From a virus: a DNA stretch of 64,000 nucleotides. Of the stretch, positions 34,792 to 61,192 are shown in pieces. The position numbers were made by a program, and so were the translations under genes. The notes under the pieces were generated by a model that saw only the letters and a program-made list of their open reading frames with translations, was not told the DNA's origin and searched no databases. Every line of letters begins with the position of its first letter. Position 1 is the stretch's first letter. The stretch covers positions 1 through 64,000 of IMG/VR virus record IMGVR_UViG_3300028571_002036, one strand, 5' to 3'.

Positions 34792-37617
34792 TTAGGAATT
34801 TAACAACTTATCTAACTCGTCTTCTATTTTACCTAAACTTTGTTGTGCAATACCTAAATTTAAAAACTGATTACCATACAAACCAGTTTCTATCAAAATA
34901 TTCATATCTTTATTTTGTGTTGATTCTGGCGTAATTTCACCCTCTTCAGGGGTTGTTGCACCCAAGTCTGGTGTTTCACCAGCTAAGTCACCACCAAGGT
35001 CTCCACCAAGGTCCGCACCAACATCAAAACCACCACCACCAAACGCAGCAGCGGCTGGTTCAGAGGTTTCACCAGGAGGTGCTTGTGGCGCCCCTTCACC
35101 AGGTTTATTTCCATACAACTTATCAAGTTGGTCAAACAATCCTGTTTTAGAGATTACTGTCGGAGTGTTTTTTAATTCCTCACCAATGGCTCTTTCCATT
35201 CTCTGTTGTAGAAGGTCAGTTCTGATTTCATCATCTGACCAATTGAAAATGTGTTTCTTAGCCCAAGTAGATGAAGCTGGTTGAATACCATTTCCGGGGT
35301 CTGAAACTAAATCACGATACAAAAGAACTTTTTCTTTCCATATATCAACCTTCAGTAAGTCAGCTTGTGTTGATGGATTTGTAAGACCTAAAGTAAAATT
35401 AGAAATCTCTTCTTCAAAACCAAGTAGAAATAAATGGATAATTGCAACCTTATTAAGTTCTTGCAACATCGACTTTTGAATTCTATTAATGGTTCTCGCA
35501 AATCGGATATCCATCAATGCTAAAGTTTTACCGTCACCGACAACTTCTTCAAAACCTAAAAAGGCCTTAGGAATTCTAAGTGCAGTAACAAGTTTTTTCT
35601 GAATGTATTCAATGTCAGCAATCTCTGAAAGATTCTGTGCTCCAGGCAAAGTTTCAATTGGAGATGGTTGTGCTGGGTCTCTAACAGGAATAAAGAAATC
35701 TTGGTCTACAGCCATTTGGTTAAACCTCATATCAACATTGCCTGTTTTGGAATCAACAATTTGTTCCCTTTTGAACTTGTTAGCAACACGTTGTACATAA
35801 GCCTCGACATCATCATCGTTCATGTTTCCAACATAAACTTTGAAAATTCTTCTTTCAGGGGCTCGTGAGGTACGATAAATTAACATCGCATCTTCAGATA
35901 ACAAAAGTTGTTTCCAAATACGGCGAGATTTTTCCAACATTGAGGTACCATATGGGAGTTTTCTGTCGTCCCCTAATAATCTGAAGTGAGCAATTTCCCA
36001 AGTTTGAAATTCCATATTTTGGGTTTTCCAAGTAAACCTTAACCCTTTGTCTTCAGTATCATTTTTTGTGACACCAACCGATGCATTTCTTGTTGACAAA
36101 CCTTGTTCAAATCTCTCAATTTCGATGTTAGGTAGTTGTTGACATCCAACAACACCTTTTTCAGGGTCTAATCTCATATAAACGAAATTATCACCGTACT
36201 TACAGGTGTTTCTTGTCCACATGGGTAGATTAGTATTGATGTCTAAAGAATTATTAAATAAATCTGATAAAACGGATTTAATTCTTTTTGATTCAGAATA
36301 AATTTGAAGAATTTGACCATCTTCGTTAGGTGTGGTAGATTCTTCAGCGTAGATATCTAAGGCCGCAGAAATTTCCGGAGTATTATGTGAAAAAATAGTG
36401 TCGGTGGCAAAATTTTTATAACCAGGAACTGTCAAGTCATACACAGGAATAACACCATAAGGTTCAATAGATTCAATTTTGTGATTTAAATTGATTACAT
36501 CACCTTTTGATTTTGCTGTGGAATATTTTGACTTTTCAATACCATAAGCATCTAAAAATGTTTGCCAATCAGAATATCCTGAATTAACAACTTCTCTTTG
36601 TATTTTTCTATATGAAACATTTAATTTTGTTGCAGTTTTTTTAAGAGTTTTTTCACCTCTAGCAGCTTCAATAATATTGTCAAAACCAATTGTAAAATAC
36701 GATGGATTGTTTACACCAGAACGCTTACCATCCCAGGACATTTTACCTTTTCTTCTCGCAACCTCAGACATTTTTTCCCTGAATTTGGGATTAGACCATA
36801 ATTTTTCGTTGTTCAATTTTGCATGATAAGCCCTATGTTCAGAGATTTTCATTATTTGAAGATTTTCTGGTTGATTATTTTTACCATTAAAATCAATATG
36901 ATGAACTTCTTCGTCTTTTTCTATCGAAATGTCATAAAACCATTGTGCAATTAAATTATGTTCGGAAATCCAACCATTATGCCCTTCATTAGAATTACAG
37001 GTATAAATCCAATTATACTTTTCATTATTGTAAAAAGATTTACGATAAAATGGCATCATTGAATCACCTTTTCGTAAATTCATCACTCTTTCAAAAGAAC
37101 CATCCCGTTTCATTAATTGATGTTCCCATGTTGCAATTATAAATGAACCATCATCAAAGGTGACTTTATATGTCATTTCATCCCTTGTGTAATGAGCATT
37201 TCTTGCTTTTGCTGGTACAACCTTTTTTAAATTGTGGTCATAAGAGTATGTTATAAATTCGTAGTTTATCCCTTTATCTGCAAGCTCCTTAATGGTAATA
37301 AATCCATCAGGCGTGGCTATTTTAGTATCACCATGAATACAATATTCCATAGATTCGTAATCGTAATACGAAGCCAAACGATTTGGTTCATAATATACGG
37401 CTTGAGTGTAGAGGTTATTTTCAACTTTAGCAAATTGATTTGCTAAATAAAATGATTGTTTGGCTTGAAGTTTTTCCCTTTCGTATTCAGTTTTATCAGT
37501 AGTTCTGAGTAATTCCTTTTTATCTAACTTGTAAACAGGAAAATCTTGATTCATCAAGGCATTAGGACCCAAAGCCCTTGTTAACCTCTGCCAAACCGTT
37601 AAATTTCTATTTTTCAT
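34792..37617 (-). CDS. Portal protein (T4 gp20-like) interrupted by an intein
   Basis: 941 residues. Without the intein (93-412) it is about 621 residues, near gp20 size. N-extein: YYEPNRLASYYDYESMEY; C-extein: TPEISAALDIYAEES, a highly conserved portal motif, then LPYGTSMLEKSRRIWKQL and a LVTALRIPKAFLGFEE segment typical of T4-like portals. The C-terminus is Gly/Ala/Glu-rich and disordered (GGGGFDVGADLGGD). It forms the dodecameric vertex for DNA entry and meets the terminase encoded just upstream. The reading frame continues through the intein, so protein splicing is needed for a working portal. Confidence 0.92.
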   Translation of the reverse strand: MKNRNLTVWQRLTRALGPNALMNQDFPVYKLDKKELLRTTDKTEYEREKLQAKQSFYLANQFAKVENNLYTQAVYYEPNRLASYYDYESMEYCIHGDTKIATPDGFITIKELADKGINYEFITYSYDHNLKKVVPAKARNAHYTRDEMTYKVTFDDGSFIIATWEHQLMKRDGSFERVMNLRKGDSMMPFYRKSFYNNEKYNWIYTCNSNEGHNGWISEHNLIAQWFYDISIEKDEEVHHIDFNGKNNQPENLQIMKISEHRAYHAKLNNEKLWSNPKFREKMSEVARRKGKMSWDGKRSGVNNPSYFTIGFDNIIEAARGEKTLKKTATKLNVSYRKIQREVVNSGYSDWQTFLDAYGIEKSKYSTAKSKGDVINLNHKIESIEPYGVIPVYDLTVPGYKNFATDTIFSHNTPEISAALDIYAEESTTPNEDGQILQIYSESKRIKSVLSDLFNNSLDINTNLPMWTRNTCKYGDNFVYMRLDPEKGVVGCQQLPNIEIERFEQGLSTRNASVGVTKNDTEDKGLRFTWKTQNMEFQTWEIAHFRLLGDDRKLPYGTSMLEKSRRIWKQLLLSEDAMLIYRTSRAPERRIFKVYVGNMNDDDVEAYVQRVANKFKREQIVDSKTGNVDMRFNQMAVDQDFFIPVRDPAQPSPIETLPGAQNLSEIADIEYIQKKLVTALRIPKAFLGFEEVVGDGKTLALMDIRFARTINRIQKSMLQELNKVAIIHLFLLGFEEEISNFTLGLTNPSTQADLLKVDIWKEKVLLYRDLVSDPGNGIQPASSTWAKKHIFNWSDDEIRTDLLQQRMERAIGEELKNTPTVISKTGLFDQLDKLYGNKPGEGAPQAPPGETSEPAAAAFGGGGFDVGADLGGDLGGDLAGETPDLGATTPEEGEITPESTQNKDMNILIETGLYGNQFLNLGIAQQSLGKIEDELDKLLNS
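36382..37341 (-). mobile_element. Intein with HNH homing endonuclease domain, inserted in portal gene
   Basis: Intein residues 93-412 of the fused protein, 320 in all. Block A is CIHGDTKIATPDG (Cys1). Block B is FIIATWEHQLMKRDG with T163 and H166. Block F is VYDLTVPGYKNF. Block G is IFSHN followed by Thr at +1, giving the standard Cys1, penultimate His, terminal Asn and Thr+1 set. Between B and F lie HHIDFNGKNNQPENLQI, an HNH nuclease core, and a helix-turn-helix-like TKLNVSYRKIQREVV. All splicing residues are present, so the intein should be active. Confidence 0.93.
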
Positions 37618-43106: not shown

Positions 43107-43916
43107 TTAGTTGTTAAGGCCGTGCATACCCCCTAGTTGTACCGCACTTAAATCGATTACAGTTCCTTGTTTCCCACCATCGGGACCAACAGGAACCCAA
43201 TCGGCTGGATGTGGGTATGGAGCAGTGGTTGGTGCAGCATCTCCACAAGTTACACAAGCCTCGGCTTCATACTGAACATTTACATCAAATACACCAAAAG
43301 GTGTTGGTGTAGGTGTTGGAGTTGAAGTTGTCGTTGCCGTAGGACTAGCGGTAATACTTGGAGTTGGTGTTCTTGTGAGGGTCGCTGTTGGGGTGTTGGT
43401 AACTGTTGCGGTATTAGTGGGGGTAATTGTTTGTGTTGCGGTAATACTTGGTGTTGGTGTCTTGGTAGAACTTGGTGTTTGAGTGACAGTTGAGCTTGGT
43501 GTTTGTGTTTGAGTATTTGTTGGAGTGGTGGTTGGTGTACTAGTATTTGTGGGCGTTGCAGTGGCGGATGAAGTTATACTTGGTGTTGGTGTACGAGAAG
43601 CTGTTATACTTGGTGTTGGAGTCACCGTGTTCGTAGGGGTGTTTGTTGGTGTTCGTGTGGGTGTTGATGTTGGTGATTCCGTTGGTGTTGGTGTTAAGTC
43701 TCCCAAACAATCAACACAATTTTCCCATGGACCATTGAATACTGTTACAATTTGTGCAAGTGGAGTTTCATCAAAAGTAGTAAGGGTCCAACAACCAATG
43801 TTTGTTGCCCCTGCTAATAATTCATAAATTCTACCCGAAACAATTGTAGCTTCAGTAGCTAAATATCTGAAGGGTTGCCCCGTACAAGAAATTCCAATAA
43901 AATAATTCAACGCCAT
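43107..43916 (-). CDS. Thr/Pro-repeat protein, probable virion decoration or fibre
   Basis: 269 residues. An N-terminal domain of about 73 residues ([19 protein letters not shown], with paired Cys near CWTL and CVDCLG) is followed by about 130 residues of TPTPT/TPSIT/TNTPT-type low-complexity repeats, then a C-terminal domain ([17 protein letters not shown]). The repeats form an extended mucin-like linker and could carry O-linked sugars made by the glycan island. A similar linker occurs in the gene at 56860. Confidence 0.6.
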
Positions 43917-50473: not shown

Positions 50474-51074
50474 GGGGTGAACGGTATTGATTGGCAGGGT
50501 TAATCATACGGGGCATGCAGTGAGATGTTTCCTATCACTTTAATCTATGGGAGTGCTTTTTAAGTGGCAACACTTTTGAAAAGCTTCAGGCTGTAGGTCT
50601 TCTTACAACTGAAGCGGTTACTGTAGCTTAGGCTATAATAACCGTGGGTCGATGGGGACATATACCTTGAAACAGAAGTCCTTATGGTGTGGTTTCTACC
50701 TTAAAAGAAATGGAGGTAATGTTTGGTGTTCTACCGATTTGAGTGAACACTCCACAGTTTCTGATGACGATGGCAAAATAGGAATCAGATATTTCGGAGG
50801 GTTAAACAAACCCTGACCTAAGCATGTAGTCCTTTATGGGTAAACTGAGCAAGACGTGGGTTAAAAATCGAGCCCCTTCATATCGTGAGATATGTCGAAA
50901 ATCGGATGAATTCAGGGGAAGTCTTTCGGGATTATCCTGAGCCAAGCCTGGTAGGAATAGGAAGGTGCAGAGACTAGTGGGTGGTAGACGCTTCTACCGT
51001 AATACCACATTAGCGTCCGACATCTTGAAAAAGATGATGATATAGTCCACTTGTGTCGAATCCCACCACCTCCA
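50474..51074 (+). ncRNA. ssrA: tmRNA (ssrA), interrupted by a group I intron in its T-loop
   Basis: The 5' GGGGGTG (50474-50480) pairs with CACCTCC (51067-51073) and gives the G3-U alanine identity pair; discriminator A is at 51074. GTGGG (50856-50860) and CCCAC (51062-51066) form the T-stem, and the spliced loop reads TTCGAAT. After a first pseudoknot (AGTGA/TCACT) and an eleven-base spacer, the resume codon GGC at 50566 opens a 21-codon tag that starts GNTFEKLQAV, ends TEAVTVA and stops at 50629-50631 in a hairpin loop. Mature length without the intron is about 407 nt. A tag starting with Gly agrees with Bacteroidota tmRNAs. CCA is not encoded. Confidence 0.92.
50862..51055 (+). other. Group I intron within tmRNA
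   Basis: 194 nt, no ORF. The upstream exon ends GTGGGT and the intron ends in G, the usual U / omega-G pair. GGGU pairs with GCCC (50872-50875) as P1. The core elements are clear: a P-like ATTCAGGGGAAG, a Q-like ATCCTGAGCCAAGC, R as GTGCAGAGACTA (P7 GACTA 50972-50976) and S as GATATAGTCC (TAGTC 51043-51047), with P8 CATCTT-GAAA-AAGATG. The core wording resembles the tRNA-Leu (IC3-type) introns of cyanobacteria. Removal restores a perfect T-loop. Confidence 0.92.
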
Positions 51075-56859: not shown

Positions 56860-58368
56860 ATGCCCACAGCTCGTCCTTTTGCTTATAATCCAGGTTCCCC
56901 TATTGCTGGAACTGAACAAGTCGGTGATATTGCCGTGGGTATAACTCCACAAAACTATTCGGGAGGATACGGAGGAGTCCGTTGGTGGAATGGACCCGAC
57001 GAAGACTTGGGATATATTATTTGTTACTCAGTTCCAACAGAGGACCACCCAAGCCCTGACGGACCAATTGCTGGTGTTGGATTTTTTAGGTCAAAATTCT
57101 TAACTGAACCATCCTTTATTGAAATTGCAGAATATGTTTCAAATGGACAAACATTTGCAACTGGTGCTGATGCAAAAATTTGGTTGAATGCAAATGGTTA
57201 TTGGACCTCCTATGATGCTGTTAGTGTTACACCTACTCCAACACCAACCCCTACCGAAACTATACCGGTTACCCCAAATCCAACAGGAACTCCAACACGA
57301 ACTCCAACACGAACTCCAAGACCTACGGTTACTCCAACTAACACACCTTACCCACCTAACACATATAAATTCTATTTGACTGAGGGTTCAAATCCTGTTG
57401 TCCCACAAAGTAATGGTGATATCATGTTTATCACTTCAGGAGATACGATAACATACAATCCAAATGATAGTTTTGAATTTGTGTTTACGGCAATCGATAA
57501 ATCAGGAACTTCACATCCTGAATATGATGATTTATTAATTTATGGTGGAACAATTACATTGACACAAGATACCAATACTTACATTGCAAGTGGTGACAGT
57601 GGATTTTTCTCTTATACTTCAACAATTGTAAGTTACTATTCAGCAAATTCTTTAGATGTAACACAGCTTTCGGCAAATCCGTTTGTTTCTGGAAGTCCAA
57701 TCTATTTAACTGCCTCTATTAATTATCCACCAACACCAACTCCAACAAATACTCCAACTAACACAGAAACACCTACCGAAACTCCAACTCAAACTCCTAC
57801 ACCAAGTGTAACTGTTGGACTAACTCCAACAATGACGCCAAGTAATTCGCCGACTCCTTCGGTAACGGCGTATATTACTCCAAACCCAACTGAAACTCCG
57901 ATAAATACGCCAACTAATACGGAAACATCAACCCCAACTCCAACACCTGCTGGACCAGGACAATATTTTTTCTTCCTTCCTGATGGGGCTACACCATCCA
58001 ATCCAGATAGTCCAGGTAATATAATGTTTCTTTCAGAAACTAGTGGACCTCAACTTGTAACATATAATTGGAATTTAGCTTTCTCTGCTTATATTAATGC
58101 AACAGATGCTTCTGGATTAAACCATCCTGATTATTACGATACTTTAACTTATGGAGGTACAGTAACAATGACTCAAGGGGCAAATACAATAATCTTCAGT
58201 GGTAATCCTTCAGTGTTTGTTGATTACGGAAGTGGTATTCTTGCAGTTGACCCTGTAACAATTCAAAGTAGTAGTTTTGTTTCAAGTACTCCGATAAACG
58301 TATTAGTTGAGGTAAATTATCCTCCAACACCCACACCAACAAATACAGTTACCCCAACACCATCATAA
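56860..58368 (+). CDS. Thr/Pro-repeat protein with two related beta-domains
   Basis: 502 residues. An N-terminal domain (about 1-120; [17 protein letters not shown]) is followed by a TPTPT linker. A first 120-residue beta-domain opens with [20 protein letters not shown] and contains [19 protein letters not shown] second T/P linker and a second domain with the same order follow ([38 protein letters not shown]). It ends in [13 protein letters not shown]. The domains look like an internal duplication. Probably a fibre or decoration protein. Confidence 0.65.
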
Positions 58369-58578: not shown

Positions 58579-58614
58579 TTAAAAATTTAAAGTCAAATAG
58601 CGGAAAAACTTTAG

Positions 58615-58688
58615 GGTGAATAATGGGAATCGAACCCACGACGCTCGGAACCACAAACCGATGCTCTACCAACTGAGCTATATCCACC
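58615..58688 (-). tRNA. tRNA-His (anticodon GTG)
   Basis: GTGGATA pairs with TATTCAC, and the extra G-1 pairs with C73, the tRNA-His hallmark. Anticodon arm TCGGT-TTGTGGT-TCCGA gives GTG. T-arm GTGGG-TTCGATT-CCCAT. Confidence 0.92.
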
Positions 58689-59561: not shown

Positions 59562-59659
59562 TGGTGTGAGCGGGATTCGAACCACGCGGCACGGTCTTTT
59601 TCACGGACTTGCTCTACCATGGGAGTATCATATGAGTACTCCACCTGAGCTATCACACC
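59562..59659 (-). tRNA. tRNA-Phe (anticodon GAA) with a hairpin inserted in the D-loop
   Basis: GGTGTGA pairs with TCACACC, discriminator A. The D-stem GCTC/GAGC encloses AGGT, then GGAGTA-CTCATATGA-TACTCC, a 21-nt hairpin, and GGTA. The anticodon loop GTGAAAA gives GAA, with a C-A mismatch closing the loop. The T-stem GCG-T-GG/CCCGC has a bulged T; T-loop TTCGAAT. 98 nt in total. Confidence 0.7.
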
Positions 59660-59666
59660 ATTTTTG

Positions 59667-59747
59667 TACCGGAAGAGGGACTCGAACCCCCACGCTAAAA
59701 AGCAGATGCTCCTAAGGCATCCGTGTCTACCATTCCACCACACCGGC
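59667..59747 (-). tRNA. tRNA-Leu (anticodon TAG)
   Basis: Anticodon arm GATGC-CTTAGGA-GCATC gives TAG. GCCGG pairs with CCGGT, with a T-T mismatch low in the acceptor. T-arm GGGGG-TTCGAGT-CCCTC. A short class II variable arm (TGCTTTTTAGCGT). Confidence 0.88.
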
Positions 59748-60472: not shown

Positions 60473-60487
60473 AAGGGTATATGTTGG

Positions 60488-60561
60488 TGGGCCTGGCAGG
60501 AATCGAACCCGCGACCTCGAAATTATGAGTTTCTCGCTCTAACCGTCTGAGCTACAGGCCC
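60488..60561 (-). tRNA. tRNA-Met (anticodon CAT), CCA encoded
   Basis: GGGCCTG pairs with CAGGCCC, then A and an encoded CCA (60487-60485). Anticodon loop CTCATAA gives CAT. D-arm GCTC..GAGC; T-arm CGGG-TTCGATT-CCTG. It could also be tRNA-Ile with a lysidine at position 34. Confidence 0.92.
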
Positions 60562-60574
60562 TGATGTTTTGTCA

Positions 60575-60603
60575 ATTATAGAAAATCAATTTCATATTGT
60601 CAA
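60575..60603 (-). promoter_or_regulatory. Consensus sigma70-like promoter of tRNA-Met
   Basis: On the minus strand TTGACA (60603-60598), a 17-base spacer and TATAAT (60580-60575), ending 13 bases before the tRNA. A perfect consensus pair. Confidence 0.7.
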
Positions 60604-60722
60604 ATCGTTTACCTTGAAAGAGTTGAATTTCCGACATTTTTTATCTGAGTTAAAAGTGTTTAGTAAACTTTTTTTTGTTACAATAAACCTCATTAGTTTA
60701 TTGAGCAATTTTTAGTTTATTG

Positions 60723-60794
60723 TGACCCCGAGGCGATTCGAACGCCCGACTAGTATGTTAAGACACACTGCTCTACCATCTGAGCTACGGGGTC
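60723..60794 (-). tRNA. tRNA-Lys (anticodon CTT) with a six-base anticodon loop
   Basis: GACCCCG pairs with CGGGGTC, discriminator A. D-arm GCTC-AGATGGTA-GAGC. The anticodon stem GTGTG/CATAC closes TCTTAA, one base short of seven, so nucleotide 32 is missing while U33, CTT and A37 remain. T-arm GGGCG-TTCGAAT-CGCCT. 72 nt. Confidence 0.8.
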
Positions 60795-60875
60795 AGATTA
60801 TTCGGTTAAAACTTAGTTGTTTACGCATCAAAATCTTAAAAAATGAACGATAAAACAAACCAAAATGACCGAAAA

Positions 60876-61110
60876 ATTTAACAAAGTATAACCAAGATTC
60901 TGTATTTAATCTATCATTAGTCTATTTGCCCCCACCTTACCCGACCAGCTCACCGTCGTGGGTTGTTTTGGGTTGCATCCTCGGTGGTAATGACGATATA
61001 AGGATGTGGACTTATAACTGACCATTATAAGTTTGTTCCCTTATATCTCCCACCTTAAGCGTGTGATGTCCTGAGTTTCCTCTCCTAAGAGCGACAGAAC
61101 TTTGTTAAAT
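60876..61110 (-). ncRNA. rnpB: Candidate miniature RNase P RNA (rnpB)
   Basis: Minus strand, 235 nt. P1 is 12 bp (ATTTAACAAAGT with ACTTTGTTAAAT). P2 is CTGTC/GATAG and P3 a small CTC-TTAG-GAG hairpin. CR-I reads AGAGGAAACTCAGGAC, against the usual GAGGAAAGTCCGGGC, and CR-V reads ACAGAATCTTGGTTATA. P4 forms with the universal bulged U: AAC-U-CAGGA with UCUUGGUU, changed on both strands together. GGGTAAGGTGG and GGCAAATAG match CR-IV. A domain GATATAAGG/CCTTATATC with an inner CTTATAA/TTATAAG hairpin stands for P10-P12. It is far smaller than cellular type A RNAs. It probably matures the phage tRNAs. Confidence 0.8.
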
Positions 61111-61192
61111 TTTTTTTTTCAGGTTTAGGTTCAGGTTCTTCGGGTTTCGGTGGAACATTCCACATTTCATCCCAAAAGGTATATTCACTCAT
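61085..61192 (-). CDS. Small acidic/Pro protein overlapping the rnpB 5' end
   Basis: 35 residues: SEYTFWDEMWNVPPKPEEPE then KPEKKNLTKFCRS. Its ATG overlaps the end of the upstream gene (ATGAGTGA), the usual coupling arrangement, so it may be translated. Its last 26 bases lie inside the RNase P RNA. It may be a real small protein, or only the leader from which the RNA is processed. Confidence 0.4.
   Translation of the reverse strand: MSEYTFWDEMWNVPPKPEEPEPKPEKKNLTKFCRS

Follow-up and report, generated by a model that had tools for sequence, protein, structure and literature searches.

We analyzed a stretch of 64,000 nucleotides (nt), hereafter the window, which corresponds to bases 1-64000 of the 84,612-base IMG/VR virus record IMGVR_UViG_3300028571_002036. 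Its proteins include a major capsid protein (Gp23, E = 1.8e-73), a portal (E = 2.9e-73) and a terminase, all of T4 type, so that the source is a tailed phage rather than a piece of bacterial DNA. On the minus strand, among tRNA genes, lies an RNA at about 60872-61114 that is a true homologue of RNase P RNA. The latter belongs to the small number of ribozymes that are nearly universal, and the assumption has been that phage tRNAs depend on the host's copy. Computation establishes the homology of the window RNA, its fold, covariation, loss of a domain, distribution and linkage to tRNA genes. A preliminary description of the DNA had placed at 60876-61110 a minus-strand RNA with the helices P1, P2 and P4, a bulged U in P4 and the conserved regions (CR) CR-I, CR-IV and CR-V; all of these are there, within about 4 nt of those positions. 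New with respect to that description are the loss of the specificity domain, the wide family to which the RNA belongs and its frequent head-to-tail fusion to a tRNA.

Identification of the RNase P RNA

The Rfam model of bacterial type A RNase P RNA (RF00010) places 60873-61109 (-) across the full length of the model, with 35.7 bits and E = 4.4e-11. The archaeal model RF00373, scored on 241 bases, finds 60877-61109 (-) with 34.1 bits and E = 1.6e-8, in a match that covers the motifs GAGGAAA, GCAA, UAG..AAUG, ACAGAA and UUA. The folding z-score lies between -4.3 and -4.5, and none of 200 shuffled sequences folded equally well. Two other assignments were rejected: type B RNase P RNA, whose model RF00011 gives no match at the locus, and archaeal type T, whose model RF02357 gives no match in the record containing the window.

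The Infernal search with Rfam models proposed in the preliminary description thus returned significant E-values with both RF00010 and RF00373, but a scan of the window at Rfam gathering thresholds reported tRNAs and a group I intron and no RNase P RNA, and an E-value scan of a 701-nt piece did not report it either. These two scans missed the RNA through the effect of threshold and filter, its score being far under the family cut-off, and not because it is absent. The curated gathering score of RF00010 is 100 bits, and with 35.7 bits the window RNA falls outside type A by this measure. The low score is likely due to the lack of a whole domain.

Relatives and Distribution

A pattern in which CR-I is joined to CR-V at short distance matched 61 stretches in IMG/VR; we judged 46 to be RNase P RNAs and dropped 15 as chance matches or coding sequence. 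RF00010 was run on 34 records, that is, 33 judged pattern matches and the Microbacterium phage A3Wally, and gave real placements in 28 (E from about 1e-11 to 1e-46), with three of the 34 over its gathering score. Further pattern scans of IMG/VR, filtered on P4 pairing and on CR-IV and CR-V marks and including a scan for the subfamily of the window, brought the number of distinct related cores to at least 142, of 148-282 nt in length, in records of up to several hundred kilobases.

The RNA of A3Wally (93852-94072; RF00010 E = 5e-23), found by blastn of a related RNA, occupies an unannotated gap between two tRNA genes. Big4 and Zooman, two further cultured Microbacterium phages, likewise have the RNA between tRNA genes and without annotation, and it is present in one other Microbacterium phage. 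When the window RNA was compared with named phages by blastn, only chance matches resulted, and the RNAs of L092, L107, L138, L113 and L131 gave nothing useful in the same comparison. A covariance model built here from 26 members, R1, recovers the held-out relatives L089, L088, L095, L096, L098, L141, L118, L131 and L109, and matches the cultured Microbacterium phages as well as the huge phages LR756511 (E = 3e-25) and LR756508 (E = 5e-15). No match to R1 was found in T4, KVP40, XacN1, CcrColossus, RM378, immuto, Mel-JY01 or XbC2.

The relatives comprise a window type, an actinophage type and types that retain part of the specificity domain (L093, L109, L113 and L124), and this multiplicity of structural classes suggests either several acquisitions or repeated reduction. 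Our literature search, which did not extend to subscription journals or bioRxiv, turned up no RNase P RNA encoded by a phage, so that one may have been reported elsewhere.

Covariation and Conservation

We compared the structure of A1, an alignment of 22 sequences, with controls in which the pairing partners were slid by 1-3 columns and with a shuffled control. Standard pairs fill 84.4% of the cells in A1, against 34.7-44.1% in the slid controls and 67.9% after shuffling; cells changed on both sides number 195, against 40-65 and 73; and the covariation score is 0.474, against at most 0.127 and 0.182, respectively. Helix by helix, P4 is paired in 99.4% of the cells, with double-sided changes at five of its eight pairs, P5 in 97.7%, with covariation at all four pairs, and P7 in 99.1%, with four of five pairs covarying. 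P6 is paired in 100% across the 22 sequences and shows UA/AU/CG exchanges. Covariation in P15 (98.5% paired) and P17 (100%) is as good as in P4, and P16, paired in 80%, covaries too. The alignment is poorer at P1, P2 and P3, which draw their support mainly from the window itself.

In the window, P4 joins 61077-61069 to 60897-60890 in eight pairs, reading AA-C-(U)-CAGGA / UCUUG-G-UU. The third P4 pair is near-universally G-C in bacteria; here, at 61075 with 60892, it is C-G, and the adjoining pairs are altered jointly. The preliminary description had taken the P4 changes to be compensatory on both strands, and had proposed conservation of the pairing in related phages as a check. It was right about the window, and the same holds generally: P4 stays paired in A1 with the exchanged pairs compensated, the third pair being C-G in 12 sequences, G-C in 7, U-A in 2 and U-G in 1. 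Across the 142 cores, among the matches listed, the third pair is G-C in 63, C-G in 42, U-G in 32 and U-A in 5, and the second is A-U in 96, G-C in 41 and C-G in 5; these cores were filtered on P4 pairing, so that the counts are no evidence for P4, which comes from the alignments A1 and A2. In 26 sequences the bulged U of P4 is invariant, as are GGU and CAA (26 of 26 each), and the CR-IV and CR-V bases (CAA; AG...AAUG; ACAGAA) are invariant or nearly so.

Between the window and its relative L112, identity is 92% across 236 nt whose ends coincide with those of the RNA, while the upstream gene shows 77% identity and nothing is alignable between that gene and the RNA. The same trend is seen with L140, L114 and L139. 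In these sequence comparisons, the RNA block is the best conserved DNA of its neighborhood, which we read as a sign of selection. A functionless locus, either a host gene that was captured and is decaying or an accidental likeness, would be in keeping with the score of 35.7 bits, where Rfam asks for 100, and with the missing domain, but it is extremely unlikely in view of this conservation, of the strong covariation among 22-26 members and of the distribution of the subfamily, whose pattern matched 19 viral contigs against a single contig, with phage-like neighboring genes, in 84,980 genomes of bacteria and archaea.

Loss of the Specificity Domain

The window RNA keeps the helices P1-P7 and P15-P17, including the P6 pseudoknot, together with CR-I, CR-IV and CR-V (table 1; the helices of the window were drawn by hand). 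P6 is formed by GCUU after P5 with GAGC of the P17 loop, as in type A. The GGU of J15/16, which in type A RNase P RNA binds the 3' CCA of tRNA, is also kept. The specificity domain that characterizes type A (P8-P14 with CR-II and CR-III) and that E. coli has at this place is absent, a hairpin between the two strands of P7 standing in its stead. In Escherichia coli the domain measures about 150 nt, and the span from CR-I to CR-V is 194 nt in the window versus 301 nt in E. coli. The replacement hairpin is down to about 10 nt in L151 and L158 (GAC-UUUG-GUC or GAC-GAAA-GUC), and only 4 of the 85 cores shorter than 200 nt, among the matches listed, have both a CR-II-like and a CR-III-like segment.

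Association with tRNA Genes

The location among phage tRNAs given in the preliminary description agrees with our data, the nearest same-strand tRNA starting 94 nt downstream of CR-V. Among the matches listed, tRNA genes occur at 128 of 142 loci, within 500 nt in 103 of them, and 1681 of 1692 tRNAs are co-oriented with the RNase P RNA. Moreover, the 5' end of the downstream tRNA falls 11-23 nt past CR-V in 45 of 110 of these loci, and 0-10 nt past it in none. A spacing of 11-23 nt leaves just the room for the 3' strand of P1, and a single RNase P cut would therefore yield the 5' end of the tRNA and the 3' end of the RNase P RNA at once. The usual site inside a tRNA gene cluster points to a partial tRNA-maturation machinery that these viruses carry with them.

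Such an RNA might also be active mainly on substrates other than tRNAs, such as phage mRNA leaders, transfer-messenger RNA (tmRNA) or other small RNAs, if the loss of the specificity domain had enabled this. That domain recognizes the T-loop region of tRNA and is gone in the short forms; a tmRNA gene is found at some loci (L105 and L125), and 14 of the 142 loci listed show no tRNA in the DNA covered. Nevertheless, the presence of tRNAs at all the others, nearly always co-oriented and often fused to the RNase P RNA, and the invariance of the CCA-binding GGU make this improbable and favor phage tRNAs as the substrates.

Some of the tRNAs and neighboring genes have peculiarities of their own. The tRNA at 60722-60794 (-) has an 8-nt anticodon loop, GUCUUAAC, to which ARAGORN assigns the four-base anticodon ctta; it is kept in L143, is odd in L133 too and might be a suppressor or frameshift tRNA. 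Window tRNAs that lack an encoded CCA depend on the CCA-adding enzyme of the host. In L096, whose phage has the RNase P RNA, a tRNA at 2041-2114 bears the amber-reading anticodon CUA, a possible case of stop-codon recoding. The tmRNA genes of L105 (6827-7193) and L125 (1926-2242) adjoin the RNase P RNA and the tRNA array.

Table 1. Features of the phage RNase P RNA and of the minus-strand tRNA cluster, in window coordinates
Feature	Position	Strand	Partner or evidence
Phage RNase P RNA, P1 to P1, ~243 nt	60872-61114	-	RF00010; RF00373; z-score; R1 157.5 bits (the window itself belongs to the R1 training set)
P1 5' strand AAAAATTTAACAAAGT	61099-61114	-	Perfect 16-bp complement of 60872-60887
P1 3' strand ACTTTGTTAAATTTTT	60872-60887	-	Partner of 61099-61114
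P2 5' strand TCTGTC	61093-61098	-	Partner 60910-60915; weak covariation, poor alignment in A1
P3 small stem-loop	61082-61091	-	Window helix drawing, A1
CR-I GAGGAAACTC and P4 5' strand, bulged U at 61074	61069-61082	-	P4 pairing in A1
P5 5' strand CATC	61065-61068	-	Partner 60976-60979 (GATG)
J5/7 strand of P6 pseudoknot	61057-61063	-	Partner is L17 loop 60946-60951
P7 5' strand	61050-61054	-	Partner 60983-60987
62-nt hairpin in place of specificity domain	60988-61049	-	Sequence and fold; P8-P14, CR-II and CR-III absent
CR-IV part: CAA, then P15 5' strand CCC	60970-60975	-	P15 partner 60930-60932
P16/P17 stem, L17 loop GGUGAGCUG	60939-60963	-	A1 covariation
J15/16 GGU motif	60934-60936	-	Invariant in 26/26 sequences
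CR-V ACAGAATCTTGGTTA, P4 3' strand 60890-60897 within	60889-60903	-	Alignments
Nearest downstream phage tRNA, probable substrate	60722-60794	-	tRNA scans
tRNA-Met (cat), same cluster	60485-60561	-	tRNA scans
tRNA-Leu (tag), same cluster	59666-59747	-	tRNA scans
tRNA with enlarged D-loop, same cluster	59562-59659	-	Extra hairpin GGAGTACTCATATGATACTCC inserted in D-loop
tRNA-His (gtg), same cluster	58614-58687	-	tRNA scans

The Phage and Its Host

A Bacteroidota host, assumed in the preliminary description, found no support: the nearest named relatives of the capsid protein are from Microcystis, Flavobacterium and uncultured huge phages, at about 40-44% identity. A perfect sigma70-type promoter (TTGACA, 17 nt, TATAAT) at 60575-60603 (-), immediately before tRNA-Met, bears on the same question. 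Sigma70-type promoters of the TTGACA/TATAAT kind differ from the usual promoter of Bacteroidota. Around the RNase P RNA, a scan for sigma70-type promoters gave matches no more numerous than expected by chance.

Elsewhere in the window, the T4-type portal gene (34792-37617, -) is split by an intein that includes a domain of HNH type (Pfam Intein_splicing and HNH_3), and upstream of the plus-strand tRNAs, at 50852-51068 (+), there is a group I intron (75 bits and E = 3e-17 with RF00028). Proteins with long T/P-rich repeats (TPTPTNTPT...) are encoded at 56860-58368 and 43107-43916 and are probably surface-exposed virion proteins.

Predicted Function

In our opinion, the RNA is very probably a phage-encoded type A ribozyme cut down to its catalytic domain, which would act together with host RnpA on phage tRNAs. 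We infer that it is transcribed and catalytic, that its partner is the host RnpA and its substrates phage tRNAs, and that it would release itself from dicistronic transcripts. A search for an RnpA gene in 46 related records and in the record of the window found none, and consequently either the host protein or activity of the RNA alone would be needed. During infection, the phage RNA would bind host RnpA and trim the 5' leaders from phage pre-tRNAs. In many phages it may share one transcript with the next tRNA, the cut at the 5' end of the tRNA doubling as formation of its own 3' end. In this way, the phage could sustain its tRNA supply once RNA synthesis of the host is switched off or when there is not enough host RNase P.

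The absence of an RnpA gene would also suit a decoy, that is, a non-cleaving RNA that inhibits host RNase P by binding the host's RnpA or pre-tRNAs. In bacteria the regions of P2, P3, P15 and CR-V contact RnpA, and these parts of the catalytic domain are retained. A decoy, however, has no need of the bulged U, the covarying P4, the P6 pseudoknot or the invariant GGU, all kept throughout the alignments, and a same-strand position within tRNA arrays fits tRNA production and not its blocking, so we regard a decoy as quite improbable compared with an active ribozyme.

As for the feasibility of an active ribozyme, the E. coli catalytic domain does cleave when alone, at a rate about 120-fold below that of the full-length RNA, and this depends in part on a P6-like pairing (PMC5839562). 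All 22 members of A1 retain P6. Pyrobaculum provides an example of a cell that can rely on an RNase P RNA lacking the specificity domain (PMC4919922).

Several points weigh against a catalytic role in tRNA maturation. The 5' cleavage of pre-tRNAs by the phage RNA is a prediction from sequence, and cleavage by RNA alone without the specificity domain is expected to be slow (PMC5839562). P1 and P2 are poorly supported by A1. Most tRNAs of the window lack an encoded CCA, and the GGU contact would therefore need CCA addition by the host or have to work without it. XacN1 and KVP40 have many tRNAs yet do without this RNA. RF00010 found none in the 50 records, nearly all of them fragments, that contain the nearest capsid relatives, and R1, run on 35 of these, gave no convincing match (best E = 9e-4 over 65 nt), indicating that the RNA is an accessory trait of patchy occurrence.

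A bolder possibility, which we put forward tentatively and with some doubt, is that many unrelated phages use a dedicated ribozyme free of specificity domain, fused to tRNAs and self-freeing, and that the viral branch with exchanged P4 pairs has escaped host constraints and may require little or no protein.

Comparison with Known RNase P RNAs

The RNAs described here form a large viral family of RNase P RNAs that occur naturally, consist of the catalytic domain alone and carry exchanges in P4 where bacteria hardly ever vary. They provide new material on the active site, on minimal RNase P and on the evolution of domain loss, and change the view of why phages carry tRNA arrays. Annotation pipelines relying on Rfam cut-offs overlook nearly all of them. 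The cultured Microbacterium phages A3Wally, Big4 and Zooman (Microbacterium foliorum NRRL B-24224) allow testing now.

The phage RNA has the same helix order as bacterial type A RNase P RNA (rnpB; RF00010; E. coli M1 RNA, NC_000913 3270216-3270592) and shares with it CR-I, CR-IV, CR-V, P6, P16, P17, the GGU of J15/16 and the bulged U of P4. In contrast to type A, it lacks P8-P14, P18, CR-II and CR-III, has exchanged P4 pairs, is encoded by a virus and adjoins tRNAs. It is therefore a member of the RNase P RNA superfamily with a type A catalytic core, placed outside type A by its lack of the specificity domain and by the Rfam cut-off.

The diverged RNase P RNAs of candidate phyla radiation bacteria also lie below the Rfam cut-offs and miss several helices, but they are products of an essential bacterial gene and about two-thirds of them are devoid of the CCA-binding UGG (PMC8172020), whereas the phage GGU is invariant. 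Pyrobaculum type T RNA (also called type P; RF02357) likewise consists of the catalytic domain only, its specificity domain being nearly lost, and a P6 has been proposed for it (PMC4919922; PMC5839562). Unlike the phage RNA, type T is the RNA that RF02357 describes, a model that gave no match here; the phage RNA, in its phage context, still has P15-P17 and the GGU of type A, and the loss of the specificity domain thus looks convergent with that in Pyrobaculum. The same catalytic-domain-only architecture is found in the engineered Eco CP RPR, which is active and needs a P6-like pairing (PMC5839562); while the latter is a laboratory construct, the phage RNA is natural and evolved.
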